A stretch of 64,000 nucleotides of DNA from NCBI RefSeq assembly GCF_000284515.1, contig NC_017668.1, positions 1,922,001-1,986,000 of the forward strand. The letters run 5' to 3'. Position 1 is the stretch's first letter, and the number at the start of each line of letters is the position of its first letter. The stretch is from Halobacillus halophilus DSM 2266. GTDB lineage: Bacteria; Bacillota; Bacilli; Bacillales; Halobacillaceae. Positions 2,993-44,758 of this stretch are shown piece after piece. The position numbers and the translations under genes are program-made. The notes below the pieces were generated by a model. It was not told where the DNA came from, searched no databases, and worked only from the letters and a program-made list of their open reading frames with translations.

Positions 2993-3523
2993 TTAGTAGT
3001 ATGGAGAGATCATCAGGTACACAATAACTCCTGTTAAACTCACATACAGCCAAATAGGCATAGTCCACCTTGCAATTTTACGATGCTTGTCTACTTTCAT
3101 AGCGAGACCGCGGAACAGAGTAATCAACGCCAGTGGAACAATGACAATAGCCAGTAAAATATGAGAGATGAGGATGAAGTAGTAAATATACTGTAAAACC
3201 CCTTCACCTCCATAGGATGTGGACGAAGACATAGAGTGATACGTTAGGTATGAAACCAGAAAAAGGGCTGTAGTTGTAAACGCTGCAAGAATAAAACGCT
3301 TATGCCACGTCACATTTTTACGAATGATCATAAACAGCGCAGCCAGTAAGAAGACAAAAGTAAATGAATTTAATATCGCATTCAAAAGGGGAAGAAGCTT
3401 AATGTTGAAACCAGTCCCACTTTCTATTTCAGGAACAAACAATAAAGCTAACACAATGAGATTGATCGCTACGGAAAGACCAATCACCCATGGAACATAA
3501 TTAAAATCTTTTTTTAACTCCAC
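2993..3523 (-). CDS. DUF420 membrane protein, YozB/CtaM-like
   Basis: A 176-residue protein with about five transmembrane helices. DUF420 members include Bacillus YozB and staphylococcal CtaM; CtaM is reported to be needed to make active heme-copper terminal oxidase. Conserved His residues in membrane segments (for example in SYLTYHS and ISHILL) fit that family. The start is GTG, preceded by GAGGTGGTG. It stands alone here; cta genes are not nearby. Confidence 0.8.
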   Translation of the reverse strand: MELKKDFNYVPWVIGLSVAINLIVLALLFVPEIESGTGFNIKLLPLLNAILNSFTFVFLLAALFMIIRKNVTWHKRFILAAFTTTALFLVSYLTYHSMSSSTSYGGEGVLQYIYYFILISHILLAIVIVPLALITLFRGLAMKVDKHRKIARWTMPIWLYVSLTGVIVYLMISPYY

Positions 3524-3758
3524 TATGATTCACCACCTCAAAAAACAAGTCATGTTAAGTATATCGAAATATAGCATTCACTTCATTAAGGAAAGGGCGG
3601 AAAAGGTGACGATAATGTTACATAACAGCATTTAATGAAGAATTTTTTAGAAGGATTGGTTATCCAATATACAATTTTGAACATAAAGAACCGAAAAATA
3701 GAACTTAAAAAACGACTGCGGATAATTATCTCTTGTTTGCAGGCGAAGGGGGCGGAGT

Positions 3759-4024
3759 ATGAAATTTGAAAAGAAAACCAATACCTTTATATGGCACTGG
3801 GTCATTTAGGGATGATCCTTGTGGGCTTAGGAGTTATGAGAATGATGTCTGTAATAAACGATTCAGCCGGGTTTGCGTTCACTTTTTTTGGATTTTTATT
3901 AATGAATATTTATATAAACGATTTAGAAAAGAAAATGGGATTTAGCAAGAAAGAGAAAGGGGCTTTCACTGCTGTATTTATCACAGTATTTGCAGGTTTA
4001 TCTTTGTGGCTGTACGTAGTGTAA
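3759..4024 (+). pseudogene. Small two-helix membrane protein, start and body in different frames
   Basis: The body (from an ATG at base 3791) encodes about 77 residues with two hydrophobic helices and a charged linker (NDLEKKMGFSKKEK). That ATG lacks a ribosome site. A strong site (AAGGGGGCGGAG) instead precedes an ATG at 3759 whose frame stops after 16 codons. Adding one A in the A-rich stretch around 3768-3777 would join them into one reading frame, beginning MKFEKENQYLYMALG. So either a one-base deletion, a sequencing error, or a leaderless short form. Function unknown. Confidence 0.5.
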
Positions 4025-4138
4025 AGCTGTAAATAAGGGCATCCTGTTTTTCTGCGTTCTTTTAATCAGGTGTTCATACCTTACATAATCTATGCGGGTT
4101 CGCAGAAACTAAGTTAAAAATGAACTGGGTGATGGCAG

Positions 4139-5110
4139 ATGACATTATACAGGCTGGGCTATGTGGCCATGAGCGTAAATCTTCAAAATGCTTCCCCCTC
4201 TCAAACCATGACGTATAAACGGTTTTCAGCGGTTCGAGACCGCGAAGCGGCGATTAGAAAACTTGAGCGTCTTGCTCAATCCAATATACAGAATTGTATA
4301 AGGCTCTTAAAGCATAATAAAACTCATCATATTGAATTCTTCAGGTTAAGCTCCCGCCTGGTACCGCTTGCTACTCACGAAGCATTAGAAAAGTGGGGTT
4401 ACCTGTCAGCCATTAAAGAGGATCTTAGCGAGCTTGGAGCTTTAGCTAAAAAAGGGGGGATAAGACTTGATTTCCATCCCGATCATTTCGTGGTCATAAA
4501 TTCAATCGATAAAGAAATTTTTAAAACGTCGATGAAGGTTTTAAAGTATCACTACCTTTTACTGTACCAAATGGGCCTTGATCCAACTCATCGATGTGTG
4601 ATTCACCTTGGAGGAAGGTACCAGGACAAAGAAAAATCGCTGGAACGCTTTATTGACAACTGGGCCTTCGTTCCCAAGGGGATTCAGAAGATGATTATGA
4701 TTGAAAATGACGATACATCCTACACATTGGATAATTGTTTGTACGTTTGTGAGAAGTTAAATATCCCCCTTGTTTTTGATATCCATCATCATCTTGCCAA
4801 TTATGACAACGAACAATGGGATCCCAACTGGGAACGTGTTTTACATACATGGTCCCGTTCACCCTTACCCGTAAAAATGCACATATCCAGTCCGAAAAGT
4901 CAGCACGAATTTAAAAGTCATGCAGATTTTGTGGATGTTGAATTATTTCTTGATTTTGTCAAAAAAACTACCGGCTCAACTGATCAAATTGATTGCATGA
5001 TCGAAGCTAAAAAGAAGGACGAAGCACTTTTTGTATTAGTAGAAGAATTGAAGAAACATCCGAATGTAATTATGGAGAGCGAAAGTACATTTAGGTGGAA
5101 AGCAGATTGA
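4139..5110 (+). CDS. uvsE: UV DNA damage endonuclease UvsE/UVDE
   Basis: A 323-residue TIM-barrel repair nuclease. UVDE enzymes nick DNA 5' to UV photoproducts as an alternative to UvrABC. Visible family marks are the N-terminal RLGYVAMS, then FRLSSRLVP, DFHPDHF, IHLGG, IENDD, FDIHHH and HISSP, which hold the metal-binding His, Asp and Glu residues. Length is normal. The ribosome site (GGGTGATGG) is modest. A terminator shared with rlmN follows. Confidence 0.92.
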   Translation: MTLYRLGYVAMSVNLQNASPSQTMTYKRFSAVRDREAAIRKLERLAQSNIQNCIRLLKHNKTHHIEFFRLSSRLVPLATHEALEKWGYLSAIKEDLSELGALAKKGGIRLDFHPDHFVVINSIDKEIFKTSMKVLKYHYLLLYQMGLDPTHRCVIHLGGRYQDKEKSLERFIDNWAFVPKGIQKMIMIENDDTSYTLDNCLYVCEKLNIPLVFDIHHHLANYDNEQWDPNWERVLHTWSRSPLPVKMHISSPKSQHEFKSHADFVDVELFLDFVKKTTGSTDQIDCMIEAKKKDEALFVLVEELKKHPNVIMESESTFRWKAD

Positions 5111-5224: not shown

Positions 5225-6307
5225 ATTGGTTTGTAATTTTTTCTGTTTGCGCGCTTTTTCTTTTTCAATTTGTTTACTTCTAAGCTGACCGCAAGCTGCA
5301 TCTATATCTGTGCCATGTTCGGTACGGACACCGCATCTAATTCCGCGATCCATCAATGTCTGATAAAAGGTAAGAATGGATTCTTTTTCACTACGTTCAT
5401 ACGGGTTATCCGCTACAGGATTGTAAGGAATCAAGTTGACGTAAGAGAGATGCTTTTTATTTTGCAGAAGATCAGCGAGTTCTTCAGCTTCTTTCTTATG
5501 ATCATTAACATCTTTAAGCAAAATGTATTCAAACGTAATCCGCCGGTTTGTTTTTTCAAGGTAGTAGTCAATGGCCGGCATTAGCTTTTCAAGGGGATAC
5601 GCCCGGTTAATTTTCATAATCTGAGTCCGAAGATCGTTGTTTGGCGCATGAATGGAAAGCGCTAAGTTGATCTGGATACCTTCGTCGGCAAACTCGTACA
5701 TTTTCGGTGCAATCCCACTTGTAGAAACAGTAATGTGACGAGCACCGATAGATAGACCTTTTTGATCGTTGACAACCTTAAGGAAGTCGATCAAGTTATC
5801 ATAGTTATCGAATGGTTCACCTATTCCCATTACCACAATGTGGCTGACACGTTCATCATTTTGTTGTTTGTCAAGGTGCTGCTGCACTTGCATAATCTGC
5901 TCGACAATCTCACCGCCTGATAAATCACGGTTTTTTTTCAGTACGCCACTCGCACAGAAGGAACACCCAATATTACATCCTACCTGTGTCGTAACGCATA
6001 CTGATAATCCATAGTTAAATCTCATAAGAACAGTTTCTATAATATTTCCATCATGTAATTTAAACAGAAATTTGACCGTTCCATCTTGTGATTCTTGTTT
6101 TATTTCCTCGGTTAACGTTTCAATTGTAAAATGTTCCTGTAGAAGATCAATACAAGATTGGTTCACATTCTTCATCTGAGAAAAATCAGTTATACGCTTT
6201 TGGTAAAGCCAATTCCAAATTTGTTTGGCTCGGAACTTTTTCTCACCATGCTCTGTGACCCAGTCCGTCAGTTGATCAAACGTTAAACCATAAATGGATG
6301 GTTTCAT
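5222..6307 (-). CDS. rlmN: 23S rRNA (adenine-2503-C2)-methyltransferase RlmN
   Basis: A 361-residue radical-SAM enzyme that methylates A2503 of 23S rRNA and A37 of some tRNAs. The CxxxCxxC cluster motif is at C111, C115 and C118 ([12 protein letters not shown]). GEPFDNYDN and SIHAPND match the family, and a C-terminal Cys in AACGQL is the likely covalent-intermediate residue. The C-terminus is Lys-rich. The start has GAGGAGCG upstream. Not Cfr-like in any obvious way. Confidence 0.95.
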
Positions 6308-6407
6308 AAATACGCTCCTCTATAAAAAAGTTCACTATTTCTATCATAATGGATACAGCTTCAACTTACAACCTTCCACTGAATGTTCTAATTTTTGCTT
6401 AATTAAA

Positions 6408-7022
6408 GACTCTATTAAACCTCCGTGTTGATCCTAAAGTAAAGCTCCCGTTTGTGTAAGACTCAGTTTCGAGATAAATGGGTCCTTTACGTTAGATGGA
6501 CAAGGGCTGGTGGGGAAATAACTCGCTTTCCTATGGGGGAACGGTAAGCTTCCTCGCTCGTTTCACTCCTTGCGGGATCTCACCTAGTCCCTTCTCCCAT
6601 GGGAGTCTCGCCATTTCCCCACCAACCCCGCTATAATGTTGCGAACGGACCCTTCCAGAAGATGAAAGTTCTTCTCCTTAATCTGCATTAAACGCTTTTA
6701 TAACAGGCTATTGTGCATCGTTATACCCTTAAAAATAGGTACAGAACCACCTGGTCTAATTCCTTACGAGTTAAAGTGGTTTCGAGCTTCTGATTTGGCC
6801 AGGTCCGGAGGGGGATGATGAAGACTCCTGCGGGATAAACATGATCGGTGAGACCCCGGAAGTCGAAGACTGAGGAGGCTCAGCACATGCCCGCGGAAAG
6901 CGAATCATCCCCCGCAGGACCTTTCTTGTCATAAAAGTATCTCGAAACTGAGTCTTCCACAATCCGGCCCTTTAGCGTAATAAGCTTCTTGTGAAAAATC
7001 TATTATAAACTTTAACAAAGCA
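6408..7022 (+). repeat. Compound palindromic repeat, copy 1 (module A then B)
   Basis: An ORF-less element of about 615 bp. The outer arms AAGACTCAGTTTCGAGATA and TATCTCGAAACTGAGTCTT are inverted. Module A is a long hairpin with arms GGGCTGGTGGGGAAAT (6504) and ATTTCCCCACCAACCC (6613). Module B has arms GGTCCGGAGGGGGATGAT (6802) and ATCATCCCCCGCAGGACC (6904). The extreme ends GACTCTATTAAA and TTTAACAAAGC are imperfect terminal inverted repeats. AT-rich near-repeats TAATTAAA and TAATTATA lie just outside. Three other copies in the window show it is a family. It fills the gap between rlmN and the stress protein gene. Confidence 0.85.
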
Positions 7023-7313
7023 TAATTATAAGAATTGTAGTAAGAAGATTAAAGGGCTTTCTACTTATAACTTCCGCATTACTGCCTTAGAAACGCTATT
7101 CACTATTCAGATTTTAAGAGAAAATCTTTGGGAAAGGAAATAAAAGACTAGGGCTGATTAACATTAGAGGTTAAAGTTTTACATAATCTGTTAAGTAATT
7201 GTTATCAAACTATAAAATTAATTCAGGATACAGCGGGTATATATTAAACAAGCCCTTTAAGGCATGGGTGATGCTGGATATTCCTTATTCAATAATGGAA
7301 AGGATGAAGTTTA

Positions 7314-7820
7314 ATGTATAAAAAAGTAGTCGTAGCATATGATGGCTCAGAAGGAAGCGAGAAAGCTTTGACTCATGCAGTAGAATTAAGCAGAACCCAG
7401 CAATCACAAATCTCCGTGGTATTTGTAGAGAAAGAAAAGGATAAATACAAAAATAATACAGGTTTTAACATGACCATGCGTAATGACATGACGCTTGAAG
7501 AAGGAGGCGCGTACGTCGGGGGGTCTGAAGAGCGAATCAATGAAAAAGAAGTGGTGCAAAGTGAGCCAAGAGCTTACGCAGGAAACCACCCCATTTTTCT
7601 AGAGGTCAAAAGAAAACTTGAAGGTGAACAGATTCCCATTCAATATGAATGGCTGGAAGGCGATCCAGTGAATCAATTATGTAATTTTGCTTCCACTCAT
7701 GAAGCAGATTTAATTGTAATTGGAAGTCGCGGTCACAGCGGCATCAAGAAATTTGTGATTGGCAGTGTGAGTGAAAAAGTAGCTAAAGGATCGGATATCC
7801 CCGTATTAATTGTAAAATAA
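7314..7820 (+). CDS. Universal stress protein, UspA family
   Basis: A 168-residue cytosolic protein starting KKVVVAYDGSEGSEKAL and ending with the nucleotide-binding GSRGHSGIKKFVIGSVSEKV pattern (GxxG-x9-GS), so it is an ATP-binding type Usp. A hydrophilic insert of about 40 residues lies in the middle. The family helps survival in stress and stasis; the exact role varies. The ribosome site (AAAGGATGAAG) precedes the ATG, and a terminator follows, so it is monocistronic. Confidence 0.88.
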   Translation: MYKKVVVAYDGSEGSEKALTHAVELSRTQQSQISVVFVEKEKDKYKNNTGFNMTMRNDMTLEEGGAYVGGSEERINEKEVVQSEPRAYAGNHPIFLEVKRKLEGEQIPIQYEWLEGDPVNQLCNFASTHEADLIVIGSRGHSGIKKFVIGSVSEKVAKGSDIPVLIVK

Positions 7821-7857
7821 AAAAGAAGTCCGGGCAGATTGCCTGGACTTCTTTTTT
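7819..7857 (+). terminator. Terminator after universal stress gene
   Basis: Arms AAAAAAGAAGTCC and GGACTTCTTTTTT form a long stem with a T-tail. Confidence 0.9.
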
Positions 7858-7921
7858 GATATAGTGCCGCCTTATAATGGGTTTTCTAAGAAGGTCTTAT
7901 AATAAAAGATTTAAAATTAAA

Positions 7922-7970
7922 TTGAATTATTCACAAGGTAAAGGGTAAAATGAGTATGAAACTGATTTCA
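7922..7970 (+). promoter_or_regulatory. Promoter and LacI-type operator of the regulator gene
   Basis: A likely sigma-A promoter, TTGAAT-N18-TAAAAT, is followed at 7957-7970 by TGAAACTGATTTCA. This matches the three operators before the downstream lipoprotein gene (TGAAA-N4-TTCA/ATCA pattern), so the regulator probably represses itself. Confidence 0.65.
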
Positions 7971-7999
7971 TAAAAGGATTAACAGAGGGGAGAATTGGA

Positions 8000-8992
8000 A
8001 TGCCAACGATTTCAGATGTAGCAAGGATTACTGGACTTTCAAAATCGACGATTTCACGTGTGATTAATAATCATCCTTATATATCAAGTGATAAACGAGA
8101 AAAAGTATTAAAGGCCATGGAAGAAATCGGGTACTATCCAAATCCCTCCGCTAGAAGATTAAGAGGCCACACAACGAATACAATAGGGGTGATTGTCCCC
8201 CGGATTGTGAATCCTTTTTTTTCTTATTTAGTAAACTCTATTGAGCAGGAAGCATTTAAAAACAATTATCAAGTTATTATATTCCAAAGTAATGATCTCA
8301 AAGATAAGGAATTATATTTTCTTAACTTATTAAAAAACAGACAGGTAGACGGGATCATTATGACGTCAATAGAAAATGATTGGGAGACAATAGAACCTTA
8401 CATGCAATATGGTCCCATCCTGCTTTGCAATGAGTACGTAAATCAATCTTCTGTATCTAAAGTGAGATTGGATCAGATGAAGGGTGCGTATATGGGTACG
8501 GAGCATCTAATTAACAAAGGACATCAAAAAATCGCGTATTGTACTGGGGGATTGTTTGCTGGATACGGTCGTGACCTTGATCGAAATACAGGCTACCAAA
8601 AAGCTATGGATAAACACCAATTAAGTCCTAACCCCAGCTGGATTTTTATTAAGAGACATTCCATTGAGGATGGAAAAAAAGTTGTGAAGGAAATCTTATC
8701 TATGAACGATAAACCTACAGCAATTTTCTCAGGCAGTGATGAAGTAGCGGCAGGAATTATTAGCGAAGCAAAAGAAAATGGTTTAAAGATTCCGGATGAT
8801 TTAGCCGTGATTGGTTTTGATGATCAGCCTCTGGCCGAAATCGTAGAACCCAAACTGACCACGATTAAACAGCCAATTGATGAAATGGGAATCAAATCTG
8901 TAGAACTGTTGATCAAGATGATGAATAATAAAGATAGTATGGTTGAAGAGGTTCAACTGCCCATTCAATTAATAGAGAGAGAATCTACGTAA
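8000..8992 (+). CDS. LacI/GalR family transcriptional repressor
   Basis: A 330-residue repressor. Residues 1-50 form the LacI helix-turn-helix and hinge (ISDVARITGLSKSTISRVINN, then SARRLRGHTTN). The rest is a periplasmic-binding-protein-like sensor for a sugar or sugar phosphate. RBS AGAGGGGAGA. Palindromes of one type lie before its own gene and before the sugar-binding lipoprotein gene, so it very likely controls both. The inducer is unknown; the partner suggests an oligosaccharide or glucoside. Confidence 0.9.
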   Translation: MPTISDVARITGLSKSTISRVINNHPYISSDKREKVLKAMEEIGYYPNPSARRLRGHTTNTIGVIVPRIVNPFFSYLVNSIEQEAFKNNYQVIIFQSNDLKDKELYFLNLLKNRQVDGIIMTSIENDWETIEPYMQYGPILLCNEYVNQSSVSKVRLDQMKGAYMGTEHLINKGHQKIAYCTGGLFAGYGRDLDRNTGYQKAMDKHQLSPNPSWIFIKRHSIEDGKKVVKEILSMNDKPTAIFSGSDEVAAGIISEAKENGLKIPDDLAVIGFDDQPLAEIVEPKLTTIKQPIDEMGIKSVELLIKMMNNKDSMVEEVQLPIQLIEREST

Positions 8993-17204: not shown

Positions 17205-17375
17205 TACTGTTAGACTCAGCTTCAAAATAAATGAAGCCTCTGTACAGAAGAGGTTCGACTAAGAACGCCACGTCGTGTGGCAACGTCGTACGACCCTGCG
17301 TCGTGTAGGGCCGGAAAGCGAACTGTCCCCTGCAGGACTTCACCACAAACTAAAATCTCAAAACTTAGTCTTAAC
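17205..17375. repeat. Decayed copy of the compound palindromic repeat
   Basis: The outer arms remain as TTAGACTCAGCTTCAAAAT and ATCTCAAAACTTAGTCTTAA. Inside, CCGGAAAGCGAACTGTCCCC and then TGCAGGACTT recall the right half of module B, next to a different set of CGTCGTGT-type short repeats. Only about 170 bp remain, so it is a deleted or variant member. Confidence 0.55.
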
Positions 17376-22449: not shown

Positions 22450-23015
22450 ACAGTAAAGCTCCCATTACTGGAAGACTTGATTTCGAGACATTTGTTGAGC
22501 GGAAGGTCCTACGGGGGACGATTTCGCTTTCCGCGGGCATGAGGTGAGCTTCCTCGGGCTTAACAGCCCTGCGGGATCTCACCGATCATGTTCATCCCGC
22601 AGGAGTCTACATCGTCCCCCTCCGGACCTGGCCAAATAAGAAACTCGAAACAGCTTCGTTCTTCACCCGCTTGAGAAGAAATAACAACATGGGCGTATAT
22701 CCTTTTCAGGCTGGAACTACGCTGTATAGCCTGTTATATAAGCATTTCAGGCGGGATAAGGAGATAGGATACTCTCTTTCCGAAGGGGCCGTTCGCCCTA
22801 ATACAGTTGGGCTGGTGGGGAAATGGCGAGACTCCCATGGGAGAAGGGACTAGGTGAGATCCCGCAGGGAGTGAAACGAGCGAGGAAGCTTACCGTTCCC
22901 CCATAGGAAAGCGAGCTATTTCCCCACCAGCCCTTCTCCAAATATCGTAATGGACCAGAATTATCTCGAAATTGAGTATTCAACTAAACGGCCCTTTAGC
23001 TTAATAAGCCCCATA
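22450..23015 (-). repeat. Compound palindromic repeat, copy 2 (module B then A)
   Basis: Same family as the element at 6408-7022 but in the opposite orientation. Module B lies on the left (GGTCCTACGGGGGACGAT and ATCGTCCCCCTCCGGACC). Module A lies on the right (GGGCTGGTGGGGAAAT and ATTTCCCCACCAGCCC). The outer arms are GAAGACTTGATTTCGAGA and TCTCGAAATTGAGTATTC, and the spacer between modules is also related. The extreme ends are less well kept than in copies 1 and 3, so the borders are approximate. No ORF is supported. Confidence 0.8.
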
Positions 23016-26537: not shown

Positions 26538-27058
26538 TGAGTTTTTGGAGGTACTAGAAAAACAAATTTGACCGACGCTGTAGTTACCGTTGAACTTCCC
26601 CAGGAAGCATCAATGATGTAAGTCATATTCTTATCCTTTTCACCTTTAATCGTAATGGACTGATTGGTTACTTTTTCTTCAATAGCCGTACCGCCTTGAA
26701 TTTTTTGATAAGAGAGAAAATCAGGTTCAGAAAAGCTTTCCGGAAACTTTATTTGTACTTTATCTCCTATGTCCGCATTGATTAACCCGGGCTTAATGGC
26801 TTCTTTTAACTGGTCAAGACTGTCGGTTACTTTAATTTCCTTTTGACGAAAATCTTCACACTCAGCCTGTGCCAGACATTCAATATAGTATTTGGCCTGA
26901 TAGTCCTGACTTTTGTACGTGAACACAACCTCATCTAATTTCCTCTCGGTTATATTTACGGGTGAAGTATCATTCTCCTGGTTGGATTGTGTTGTATCCT
27001 GACTCGAACATCCCGCTATTATGACGGCTACGATCAAGAAACGAATGAAAAGACTCAT
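26534..27058 (-). CDS. Small lipoprotein of unknown function
   Basis: A 174-residue exported protein with a short signal peptide and lipobox VIIAGCSSQ (Cys at residue 17). A Gln/Asn/Asp-rich linker follows, then a beta-rich domain with two cysteines in CLAQAECEDF. I do not recognise a family. It reads toward panF and shares its terminator. A membrane-tethered surface domain is the most that can be said. Confidence 0.7.
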   Translation of the reverse strand: MSLFIRFLIVAVIIAGCSSQDTTQSNQENDTSPVNITERKLDEVVFTYKSQDYQAKYYIECLAQAECEDFRQKEIKVTDSLDQLKEAIKPGLINADIGDKVQIKFPESFSEPDFLSYQKIQGGTAIEEKVTNQSITIKGEKDKNMTYIIDASWGSSTVTTASVKFVFLVPPKTQ

Positions 27059-27246
27059 AAACGAACCTACTTTCTGCTGAACTTTTATCCTATCTTGGAT
27101 TTTACAATGTTCCCGCTCGCATCACAAACTAGAAGGGAGGAGACTTTGCGTTTTTAAAACTTTCTTAATGACAGGTGAAAAGAGGCAGGTTAACGAATAC
27201 ACATAACCGTTGGGTTAAGTTGATATAGCAGAATTACTTTATAAAA

Positions 27247-27869
27247 GGCTTTGTTATAGTGTATTGTTGATTTTTCATAAGATGCTTATTACGCAATAGG
27301 GCCGGATTGTGGAAGACTCAGTTTCGAGATATTTTGTAGAGAAAGGGGCTCCAGGGAACGACTCGCTTTCCGCGGGCATGTGGTGAGCTTCCTCAGGCTT
27401 TGCCTTCCGGGATCTCACCGATCATGTTCATCCCGCAGGAGTCTTCGCCGTTCCCTTCCGCCCCTTTGCGATCATTGAGAGCTCGAAGTTCTCTGCATAC
27501 ACACCTTCCAATGAACAAGGATCATCTATAATCTACCTTGATTTTTACTGTTTTGTTTACGTGTAGGAACCCTGTTATAGAAGCATTTGAGGCAGATACA
27601 GCTTGGCTCCTGTCTTCTATAGCAGGGTCCGTTCACTATATCGTTGGGGTGGCGGAGGAAACGACGAGACTCCCGCGGGAGAAGGAGCTAGGCGAGACCC
27701 CACAAGGAGTGTTAACGACTGAGGAGGCTTGCCAGTTCCCCCGCAGGAAAGCGAGTTGTTTCCTTAGCCGCCCTATCCTTTTTTAGCAATGGCCCCGAGT
27801 TATCTCGAAACTGAGTCTTCAACAAACGGGAGCTTTACCTTAAAATCAACACGGGAACTTAACAGAGCA
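27247..27869 (-). repeat. Compound palindromic repeat, copy 3 (module B then A)
   Basis: About 623 bp, same orientation as copy 2. It starts GGCTTTGTTATAG and ends CTTAACAGAGCA, imperfect terminal inverted repeats. The outer arms are GAAGACTCAGTTTCGAGATA and TATCTCGAAACTGAGTCTTC. Module A has diverged (GGGGTGGCGGAGGAAACGAC). The 8-mer TTATAAAA directly flanks both ends (27239-27246 and 27870-27877), consistent with a target-site duplication. The right edge abuts the T-tract of the yfiY terminator. Confidence 0.85.
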
Positions 27870-27871
27870 TT

Positions 27872-27912
27872 ATAAAAAAGGAATGGACGGATTTCCCGGC
27901 CATTCCTTTTCA
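27872..27912 (-). terminator. Terminator of yfiY
   Basis: AAAAGGAATGG and CCATTCCTTTT arms. On the minus strand the stem is followed by TTTTTTATAA, where repeat copy 3 begins. Confidence 0.88.
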
Positions 27913-27914
27913 GC

Positions 27915-28904
27915 TTACTCTTCATTTTCTAAGAAGTATTTTTCCAAATCATCTACCATCTCATTAGCGGCAATATATCCGCCTGCTGTGTTCCAAATCG
28001 CATCACTTACTTCATGAACGTCTCCGGATTTTACAACATCAAGGTTTTGGAAGAGGGGATCGTTTAACCATTCTTCTTGCAGATTGCTTGCTGCTCCATC
28101 TCCTGTTTCATACGTGAAGTAGAAGAGGACGTCTCCATCCATGGCTGGAATTCTTTCTTTAGTCGCTTTTTCCATAAAATCATTTACATCCTGGGATTCA
28201 GGTCGCTCGAACCCGATTTGTTCCAAAATGACACCTGAGAAAGAATCCTTATGATAGATTCGTACATGGTCCGGCAAGAAACGGATGACTGATACTTTTT
28301 GATTTAATTTATCTCCGGCTTGATCGGCAAAATCTTGTAGTCGCTGATCATATTCGTCGATCAGCTGTTGACCTTTGTCTTCCATATTTAGAGCTTCAGC
28401 GTAGGTCATGAAATTACTTTGCCACTCGCCACGTAGTTTTTCAGAGAAAATCGTAGGGGCAATTTTGTTTAACTTTTCATAGATATCTTCCTGACGCTGT
28501 TTGTTACCGATGATCAAGTCAGGCTCCAGTTCAAGGATTTTTTCAATATTTACGTTAGATTCGTCCCCGACAACCTCTACGCCTTCCATTTGATCGCTGA
28601 TATGATCGTACCATGGATCGCCTGTCCAGGATTTAACTGCTCCTACAGGTTTAACATCCATAGCTAGAAGGGCTTCTGTACCTTCATTAGTAAGGATGAC
28701 GACACGCTCTGGCTTTTCCTCAACCGTTGTTTCTCCCATTGCATGTTCGATTGTGTATGGCTCAAAGTTTTCAGATCCAGAATCATTAGAATTATCTTCG
28801 CTGTCCTGGGTGGTATCTTCTTCAGATGAAGAATTTCCGCAAGCAGATAAAACCAATGAAAGAACCATCAATAGAGCTAATGGTGCTAAGAACCTTTTTA
28901 ACAT
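27915..28904 (-). CDS. yfiY: Iron-siderophore ABC transporter substrate-binding lipoprotein
   Basis: A 329-residue FhuD/FecB-type lipoprotein (lipobox VLSACG, Cys near residue 22) that captures ferric siderophores. After a Ser/Asp/Glu-rich linker come TIEHAMGETTVEEKPERVVIL and LEPDLIIGNK, the usual helical-backbone binding protein marks. Divergent FecCD permease genes and Fur boxes match Bacillus yfiY-yfiZ-yfhA, a hydroxamate (schizokinen/arthrobactin) system. Ligand assignment rests on that analogy only. Confidence 0.88.
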   Translation of the reverse strand: MLKRFLAPLALLMVLSLVLSACGNSSSEEDTTQDSEDNSNDSGSENFEPYTIEHAMGETTVEEKPERVVILTNEGTEALLAMDVKPVGAVKSWTGDPWYDHISDQMEGVEVVGDESNVNIEKILELEPDLIIGNKQRQEDIYEKLNKIAPTIFSEKLRGEWQSNFMTYAEALNMEDKGQQLIDEYDQRLQDFADQAGDKLNQKVSVIRFLPDHVRIYHKDSFSGVILEQIGFERPESQDVNDFMEKATKERIPAMDGDVLFYFTYETGDGAASNLQEEWLNDPLFQNLDVVKSGDVHEVSDAIWNTAGGYIAANEMVDDLEKYFLENEE

Positions 28905-43955: not shown

Positions 43956-44082
43956 GGCATGTCCTCCTTCTTTACATTAAATGAAAGAACCATGTAATTT
44001 AGAAGGATTAAAAGTGGTGGTCAACACATCTTTTTTGAGAATTAATCGGACGAACAGTAAAAGGATGGAGAATTCTTTAAAA

Positions 44083-44705
44083 GTAGGCTCTATTAAACTT
44101 CCGTATTGATTTTAAGGTAAAGCTCCCATTTGTTGAAAACTTGATTTCGAGATGAATGGGTCCGTTACGTTAAAGGGAAGAGGGCTGGTGAGGAAATAAC
44201 TCGCTTTCCTGTGGGGGAACTGGTGAGCCTCCTCAGTCGTTTCACTCCCTGTGGGGTCTCACCTAGATCCTTCTCCCACGGGAGTCTCGCCATTTCCCCA
44301 CCAGCCCAGCCGAGTCAGAATAACGGACGCTATTATAAGAAAGGATGCTCTCCTTCTTAATCGGTCCTAAATGCTTTTGTGACAGTCTATTTCACATCGT
44401 TATAGCATGAAAATAGCCTCTTGATCCCATGCTTTTTTCATGAACCCATCGATGTCTTAAATGATTTCGAGTTTCTGATTTTGGGCAGGTCCGAAGGGGG
44501 ACGATGCAGACTCCTGCGGGTTGAACATGATCGGTGAGACCCCGCAGAGCTTGCTCTAGGAGGCTCAGCACATGCCCGCGGAAAGCGAAATCGTCCCCCG
44601 AAGGGCCTACAGACTAACACGATATCTCGAAATTGAGTCTTACAGTATACGGCCCTATTGCGTAATAAGCCTCTTATGAAAATTTCATAATAAACTAAAC
44701 AGAGC
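44083..44705 (+). repeat. Compound palindromic repeat, copy 4 (module A then B)
   Basis: About 623 bp, same orientation as copy 1. Module A has arms GGGCTGGTGAGGAAAT and ATTTCCCCACCAGCCC. Module B has arms GGTCCGAAGGGGGACGAT and ATCGTCCCCCGAAGGGCC. The ends GGCTCTATTAAAC and AACTAAACAGAGC are terminal inverted repeats. TTAAAA occurs just outside both ends (44077 and 44706). The right flank is the T-tract of the terminator of the next leftward gene. The spacer aligns by eye with that of copy 1. Confidence 0.85.
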
Positions 44706-44712
44706 TTAAAAT

Positions 44713-44758
44713 AAAAAAGGTTTTCACAAGTTTAAATATACTCGTGAAAACCTTTTAG
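44713..44758 (-). terminator. Terminator for the downstream leftward gene
   Basis: AAAAGGTTTTCAC and GTGAAAACCTTTT arms; on the minus strand it ends the HExxY protein gene. Confidence 0.88.

Follow-up and report, generated by a model that had tools for sequence, protein, structure and literature searches.

A 615-bp repeat of Halobacillus halophilus as a probable non-autonomous IS1595-family transposon with a hairpin payload

In the Bacillus cereus group, MIC231 is a transposase-less unit with variable cargo between shared ends of an IS4-type insertion sequence. If a mobile insertion cassette (MIC) is taken to be a transposase-less cargo unit between IS ends, the 615-bp repeats found in Halobacillus halophilus DSM 2266 are MIC-like. 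They differ from MIC231 in their IS1595 ends and non-coding cargo, and in that the related transposons possess a recurrent site after their genes as well as multi-gene arrays. Mobile insertion cassettes are the subject of work cited in the reference list of PMC2266710. With IS1595 insertion sequences and the MITEs derived from them, the repeats have in common a PF12762 transposase, 8-bp target duplications and ends found also in a transposase-bearing relative, but the 615-bp interior consists of two inverted hairpins between half-sites and not of a deleted transposase.

Other described systems show partial similarity. Integron arrays and CALINs resemble some loci related to our repeat in having unidirectional small genes, a palindromic site after each gene, shared segments that end at sites and a group II intron, but at the latter loci the site sequence is different and the recognizable neighbour is a DDE transposase, and no integron integrase exceeds the cut-off in 22 genomes of the genus. 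REP, BIME and REPIN families likewise comprise many intergenic palindromes, at times as inverted pairs, whereas the modules described here are about 125 bp long, have several stems and, in the host, lie inside a transposon with target duplications. According to its description in PMC2267715, Bhal-1 of Bacillus halodurans is an intergenic, structured stem-loop family of 74 bp with tens of copies; it resembles the hairpin module, on the basis of that description only, in being intergenic, structured and from the Bacillus order. In our search of the open-access literature MITEs, MIC231-type cassettes and integrons came closest, with no description of the 615-bp repeat or of IS1595-borne cassette arrays, and a literature text search with the letters of the arm, site and modules returned nothing on such a Bacillales repeat in titles and the first parts of abstracts.

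The window, that is the complete stretch of 64,000 nucleotides that was analysed, contains four copies of the repeat. All are found where the initial annotation had placed them, and its limits for copies 1 (6408–7022) and 3 (27247–27869) were exact to the base; copy 4, put earlier at 44083–44705, is better delimited as 44086–44706, and the ends of copy 2 (22450–23015) are decayed. Two architectures, with hairpin modules in the order A-B (copies 1 and 4) or B-A (copies 2 and 3), had been distinguished, but these are rejected because reverse-complementing copies 2 and 3 gives the arrangement of copies 1 and 4, so that a single element is seen in both orientations. The arms of type AAGACTCAGTTTCGAGATA had been regarded as the outer ends. 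This does not hold either, since the true ends of copy 1 are located 50 and 66 bp beyond the arms; the arms are rejected as transposon ends and the real termini lie outside them. That no protein is encoded was correct: no ORF of at least 100 aa overlaps any of the four copies, and hence no internal transposase gene of that size was found, as expected for a MITE.

Copy 1 (6408–7022, plus strand) is annotated as a complete IS1595-type MITE of 615 bp with the ends GACTCTATTAAA...TTTAACAAAGCA. It starts with the terminal repeat GACTCTATTAAAC, and 50 bp separate this end from the 19-bp arm AAGACTCAGTTTCGAGATA, an exact match that forms the left half-site (A arm, 6458–6476, plus strand). This is followed by the module A hairpin (6504–6632, sense on the minus strand), a central spacer (6633–6800) and, inverted relative to A, the homologous module B hairpin (6801–6922, plus strand). 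The inverted arm, again an exact match, is the right half-site (T arm, 6938–6956, minus strand), after which 66 bp with the terminus TTTAACAAAGCA complete the element. The flanking target duplications TAATTAAA (6400–6407) and TAATTATA (7023–7030) are identical at 7 of 8 positions. Copy 4 (plus strand) is also complete, with two terminal inverted repeats and flanks identical at 6 of 8 positions (TAAAAGTA at 44078–44085 and TAAAATAA at 44707–44714); its modules A and B are at 44182–44311 (minus) and 44485–44608 (plus). On the minus strand, copy 3 is a complete element with a perfect 8-bp duplication, TTATAAAA, at 27239–27246 and 27870–27877, module B at 27344–27466 (minus, approximate limits) and module A at 27642–27773 (plus). 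Copy 2, reversed as well, has arms at 22472–22490 and 22962–22980, module B at 22504–22629 (minus, approximate limits) and module A at 22805–22933 (plus); its left terminal inverted repeat was not found. By eye, modules A and reverse-complemented B are similar in an alignment of 19 copies, with the letters TCGCTTTCC..GGG, TCCTC, GGG.TCTCACC and GGAGTCT retained in both, so that a single hairpin module, present twice in opposite orientation, gives the element the form of a large inverted repeat. The senses of the modules are directed outwards, away from the spacer.

The termini of the elements are the terminal inverted repeats GGCTCTGTTAAAC...GTTTAACAGAGCC, and closely similar ends occur in transposase-bearing relatives of the IS1595 family. 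Flanking sequences were compared for 52 arm-bounded elements from the host and other species, a set for which two recognizable ends were required, the rest being dropped, and in which one locus (L013) is counted twice. In 25 of these elements the two 8-mers beside the ends have at least 6 of 8 positions in common, where shuffled pairing predicts 2.9, and the duplication is perfect in 10, against a shuffled expectation of 0.28. The remaining 27 agree at no more than 5 positions, which counts against reading the elements as MITEs; we read these poorly matching flanks as the result of decay or misplaced ends. An empty site was found for copy 3, the one window copy to which this comparison was applied. 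Its region was searched in 22 genomes of the host genus, among them G002 and G005, which do not have copy 3. In G002 the left flank (window 26950–27246) abuts the right flank (27870–28250) with an overlap of exactly 8 bases, TTATAAAA, and this site with a single TTATAAAA is a clean empty site. In G005, which also is without copy 3, the left flank has diverged. The letters GGCTCTGTT are reminiscent of what we take to be IS6-family ends, but this guess was rejected as the adjoining transposase belongs to IS1595. In view of the above, we consider it very probable (about 0.93) that each 615-bp repeat is a non-autonomous transposon (MITE) of the IS1595 family.

The assignment to this family comes from relatives that do carry a transposase. 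A 349-aa ORF with a PF12762 domain (DDE_Tnp_IS1595, E 2.5e-12) adjoins a 60-bp palindrome composed of two arms. The genome with this ORF, Halobacillus sp. A1, has two complete transposase-bearing elements, and their termini are closely similar to those of the 615-bp repeat. One consists, in this order, of AATTCTTT, GGCTCTGTTAAAG, a half-site, a gene for a small membrane protein, the palindrome, the transposase, CTTTAACAGAGCC and again AATTCTTT; the other is flanked on either side by TTATATTT. Halobacillus sp. A1, if identical with genome G140, is assigned to another genus of the same family. A plasmid transposon of Pontibacillus, with ATTCGAAA on either side, splits a glutamine synthetase gene and contains a transposase, site, gene, site, gene and site in succession. 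The nearest plasmid copy is annotated as 'IS1595 family transposase', and a plasmid search with the whole element retrieved pieces of the modules in only 3 records. Among the transposase loci surveyed across the order, 17 of 27 hold complete transposons with identical 8-bp flanks, right ends being accepted at 7 or more of 8 positions; at the other 10, the sequence retrieved does not contain a complete element. A passenger ORF of at least 50 aa is present in 14 of the 17. Letters of the CAACTAACGGGG type (up to 3 mismatches) directly follow the transposase stop codon in 7 of the 10 complete transposons whose transposase is at least 81% identical to the query, and in none of the 7 in which identity is 61% or lower. 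Four loci (L182, L184, L189 and L201) have further MITE-sized elements with ends of the GGCTCTGTTAAA type and perfect 8-bp duplications but no arms, and may represent a sister family of MITEs that contain remnants of a transposase.

Transposase matches were found in 12 of 22 genomes of the host genus, as pieces of up to about 82 residues, and in 125 of the 299 genomes of the order sample, where some are intact. The host genome itself gave four transposase fragment matches and no match to the PF12762 profile, the IS1595 transposase domain, so that its elements look orphaned, a point against the transposon reading as far as present activity is concerned. The mechanism that we propose is that an IS1595 transposase would act in trans on the repeat ends, cut or copy the element, and insert it at AT-rich 8-bp targets. 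Because the host retains fragments only, the family would have been spread by a transposase that has since been lost or that visited on other elements. The interior occupies the place that passenger genes have in the related transposons, with a half-site, the payload and a second half-site. The payload, probably derived from a cassette, consists of a structured hairpin that occurs throughout the order, present here in two inverted copies. Most likely the 615-bp unit is carried along by IS1595 transposition and has a non-coding cassette as its cargo.

The family is large. The 19-bp arm has 430 matches with up to 3 mismatches in the 4.17-Mb host genome (210 forward, 220 reverse), compared to a single match for the reversed control pattern, which implies roughly 200 arm pairs; the matches include gene-cassette sites and palindromes as well, and the figure of about 215 is therefore an upper guide for arm pairs and does not give the number of 615-bp elements. 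A BLAST search with copy 1 against its own genome gave at least 40 matches longer than 430 bases among the best 40 of 270 candidates. Apart from copy 1 itself, the copies among the matches listed are 78–98% identical to it, and inter-copy identities up to 98% suggest recent spread. As the similarity searches of the own genome scored the best 40 of 259–295 candidates, copy-number figures rest on the arm pattern. Of the 20 host module loci fetched from beyond the window, 19 are flanked by arms on two sides and one on one side. The exact arm occurs in at least 120 stretches of named genomes; of the 80 that were listed, 78 belong to the genera Halobacillus or Thalassobacillus, and the other two go under the name Bacillus.

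The hairpin has a much wider distribution than the arm. As had been supposed for the GC-rich CGCGGAAAGCGA piece, it is common beyond the host: module B was matched in 193 of 299 order-level genomes and in 79 of 116 genera, with the best 2 matches scored per genome. A module was examined at 29 order loci; 26 have no adjacent arm, two have one and a single locus has both. The stems covary, as had been proposed, with compensatory changes in 24 of 38 pairs of module A (alignment A2, 32 sequences selected from a diverse set of 49, itself drawn from 129) and in 14 of 23 pairs of module B (alignment A1, 30 sequences from 26 of the 29 order loci and the four window copies, copies 2 and 3 contributing part of the module). 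In the latter alignment 32 of 134 columns are invariant. The view of the initial annotation that this is a structured repeat stands insofar as the family is genome-wide, covarying and protein-less; neither a lack of further copies nor missing covariation with random boundaries was encountered. Its transposon nature had been missed, and the arms are internal half-sites.

Folding energies of the copy 1 modules were better than those of shuffled sequences on either strand, with z-scores from −5.4 to −7.6 and none of 200 shuffles as good (−7.55 for module A on its sense strand, −5.75 for module B). The sense strands fold more stably than their complements (−66.9 vs −56.6 and −61.6 vs −59.2 kcal/mol), and on the sense strand there are 83 G-U pairs and 13 A-C oppositions in module A, 7 and 3 in module B, a count that leans toward the sense strand since the pairing structure was derived from it. 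The G-U bias gives a weak suggestion that the payload also folds as RNA, read outward from the spacer. A known Rfam RNA is rejected as the identity of the 615-bp copy: Rfam gave no match to the element, either at the gathering threshold over the window or with E-values up to 1 over copy 1.

A different payload is found in a fifth, decayed arm-bounded stretch of the window (17211–17372, plus strand), with arms at 17211–17229 (4 mismatches) and 17354–17372 (3 mismatches) and no recognizable terminal repeat. Between these arms lies the Bacillaceae-1 RNA, which is the Rfam family RF01690 (PMC2864571), at 17243–17309 on the plus strand (55.7 bits, gathering threshold 35). It differs in structure from the payload of copy 1. 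The same RNA is present inside arm-bounded elements at three of 14 loci scanned (L081, L129 and L134), and at L129 it is situated, by eye, within the hairpin module, which means that the palindromes are nested. RF01690 here looks like nested mobile DNA.

At related loci the arm is found at the 3' end of successive single small genes that all have the same direction. The host has two such arrays (L217 and L218), each headed by a 60-bp palindrome beside a transposase remnant. Ten array genes were scanned: two encode GNAT acetyltransferases, one is YesK-like, one has a weak HXXEE match below the cut-off and six were unmatched. The passenger ORFs scanned, 10 of 23, comprise a methyltransferase, two acetyltransferases, a PF00144 serine hydrolase, a GrpB protein, a zinc dehydrogenase, an alpha/beta hydrolase, a HIT protein, a DUF4037 protein and one without a match. 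Outside the module elements 93 sites face the 3' end of a gene, 48 a 5' end, and 74 are ORF-less in the sense that no ORF of at least 60 aa lies within 200 bp. A recognizable transposase end is present alongside 6 of the 28 palindromes of 60 bp and nothing of the kind at the other 22. The ends of segments shared between loci coincide with sites in 43 of 194 cases, counted in two narrow windows, one placed at the outer arm edge and one 27–40 bp beyond it, that were chosen after inspection of the data, while random placement gives 2.8 (at most 9 in 2000 trials); these ends are non-independent, as one junction may recur in several loci, and the set omits two duplicate loci (L090 and L091) and all module-bearing segments. 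At L215 (approximately 6280–8960) a group II intron (RF02004, RF00029) with a 593-aa reverse transcriptase begins at a cassette site, which is reminiscent of introns that target integron attC sites, and this segment, from the site onward, is common to L218 (from 17350) and L142 (1–2047). Another locus, L126 of Bacillus sp. RAR_GA_16, has at 2995–4505 a gene that by eye is metallophosphoesterase-like between two facing arms, possibly a gene-carrying version of the element.

Three other explanations for the repeats can be considered. The hairpins could be structured non-coding RNA genes under selection, the transposon ends being incidental. The strong covariation and the letters that are invariant across the order would agree with this, as would the excess of G-U over A-C, marked in module A and slight in module B, and the presence of Bacillaceae-1 RNA in a like element; however, the G-U count is biased toward the strand that gave the structure. 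Copy 1 has 2 promoter-like sites (0.8 in shuffles, sd 0.8) and no terminators. Target duplications accompany the insertion of whole elements, and copy 3 is missing from a relative. A role as RNA gene may account for the module but not for the 615-bp unit, and as an explanation of the family we regard it as rather unlikely. A second possibility, that mobility belongs to the hairpins and that a Y1 (HUH) transposase moves them in single-stranded form as in REPs and REPINs, finds support in the 26 of 29 order loci at which the module is arm-free and in the second inverted module near some loci. This REPIN-like arrangement, with a second module a few hundred bases off, was seen outside the host at L229, L236 and L251. 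Movement of this kind is difficult to reconcile with the further modules of the host, 19 of 20 of which sit between two arms and the remaining one next to one arm, and with the terminal repeats and 8-bp duplications of the 615-bp unit. To our knowledge, Y1 elements make no target duplications. We therefore hold single-strand movement of the hairpins to be improbable, and transposition as an IS1595-family MITE remains the preferred explanation.

The gene arrays raise the question whether the arms are attC sites, with the units moved as cassettes by an integron integrase. Arrays in which small genes follow one another in one direction, each with a site behind it, would agree with this, as would the coincidence of shared-segment ends with sites and the group II intron within an array. 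The attC core is GTTRRRY, and by eye some sites have GTTGAAG, one letter from it. Yet none of the 22 genus genomes reaches the cut-off for the integron integrase TIGR02249, weaker Xer-like matches being present in all 22, and an integron with IntI was rejected on this ground. The only recognizable neighbour of the palindromes, at 6 of 28, is an IS1595 transposase end, which makes integron cassettes a very improbable explanation. We tentatively propose, at somewhat less than even odds, that in the Bacillales a clade of IS1595 transposons forms the platform for an integrase-free, integron-like system of gene cassettes, in which units are exchanged at the sites. The platform would consist of a terminal repeat, transposase, palindromic site, gene-site units and a second terminal repeat. 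At a site of about 35 bp, TATCTTGAATTCAAGTCTTCnnnTAACGGGGGC in Halobacillus kin and with the core CAACTAACGGGG elsewhere, small genes would be swapped, as would payloads of non-coding hairpins, those of the window elements included, by some recombinase or a side-reaction of the transposase. Homologous recombination at the short repeats may also exchange the cassettes.

With the assignment to IS1595 it becomes clear how a repeat that had gone unannotated, and whose arms number in the hundreds in a single genome, is spread. Its hairpin represents a large structured family that occurs in about two-thirds of the sampled genomes of the order and for which no Rfam entry was found. The cassette system, if true, would give bacteria a second means of accumulating and exchanging single genes, and this in genomes in which our search found no integron integrase.
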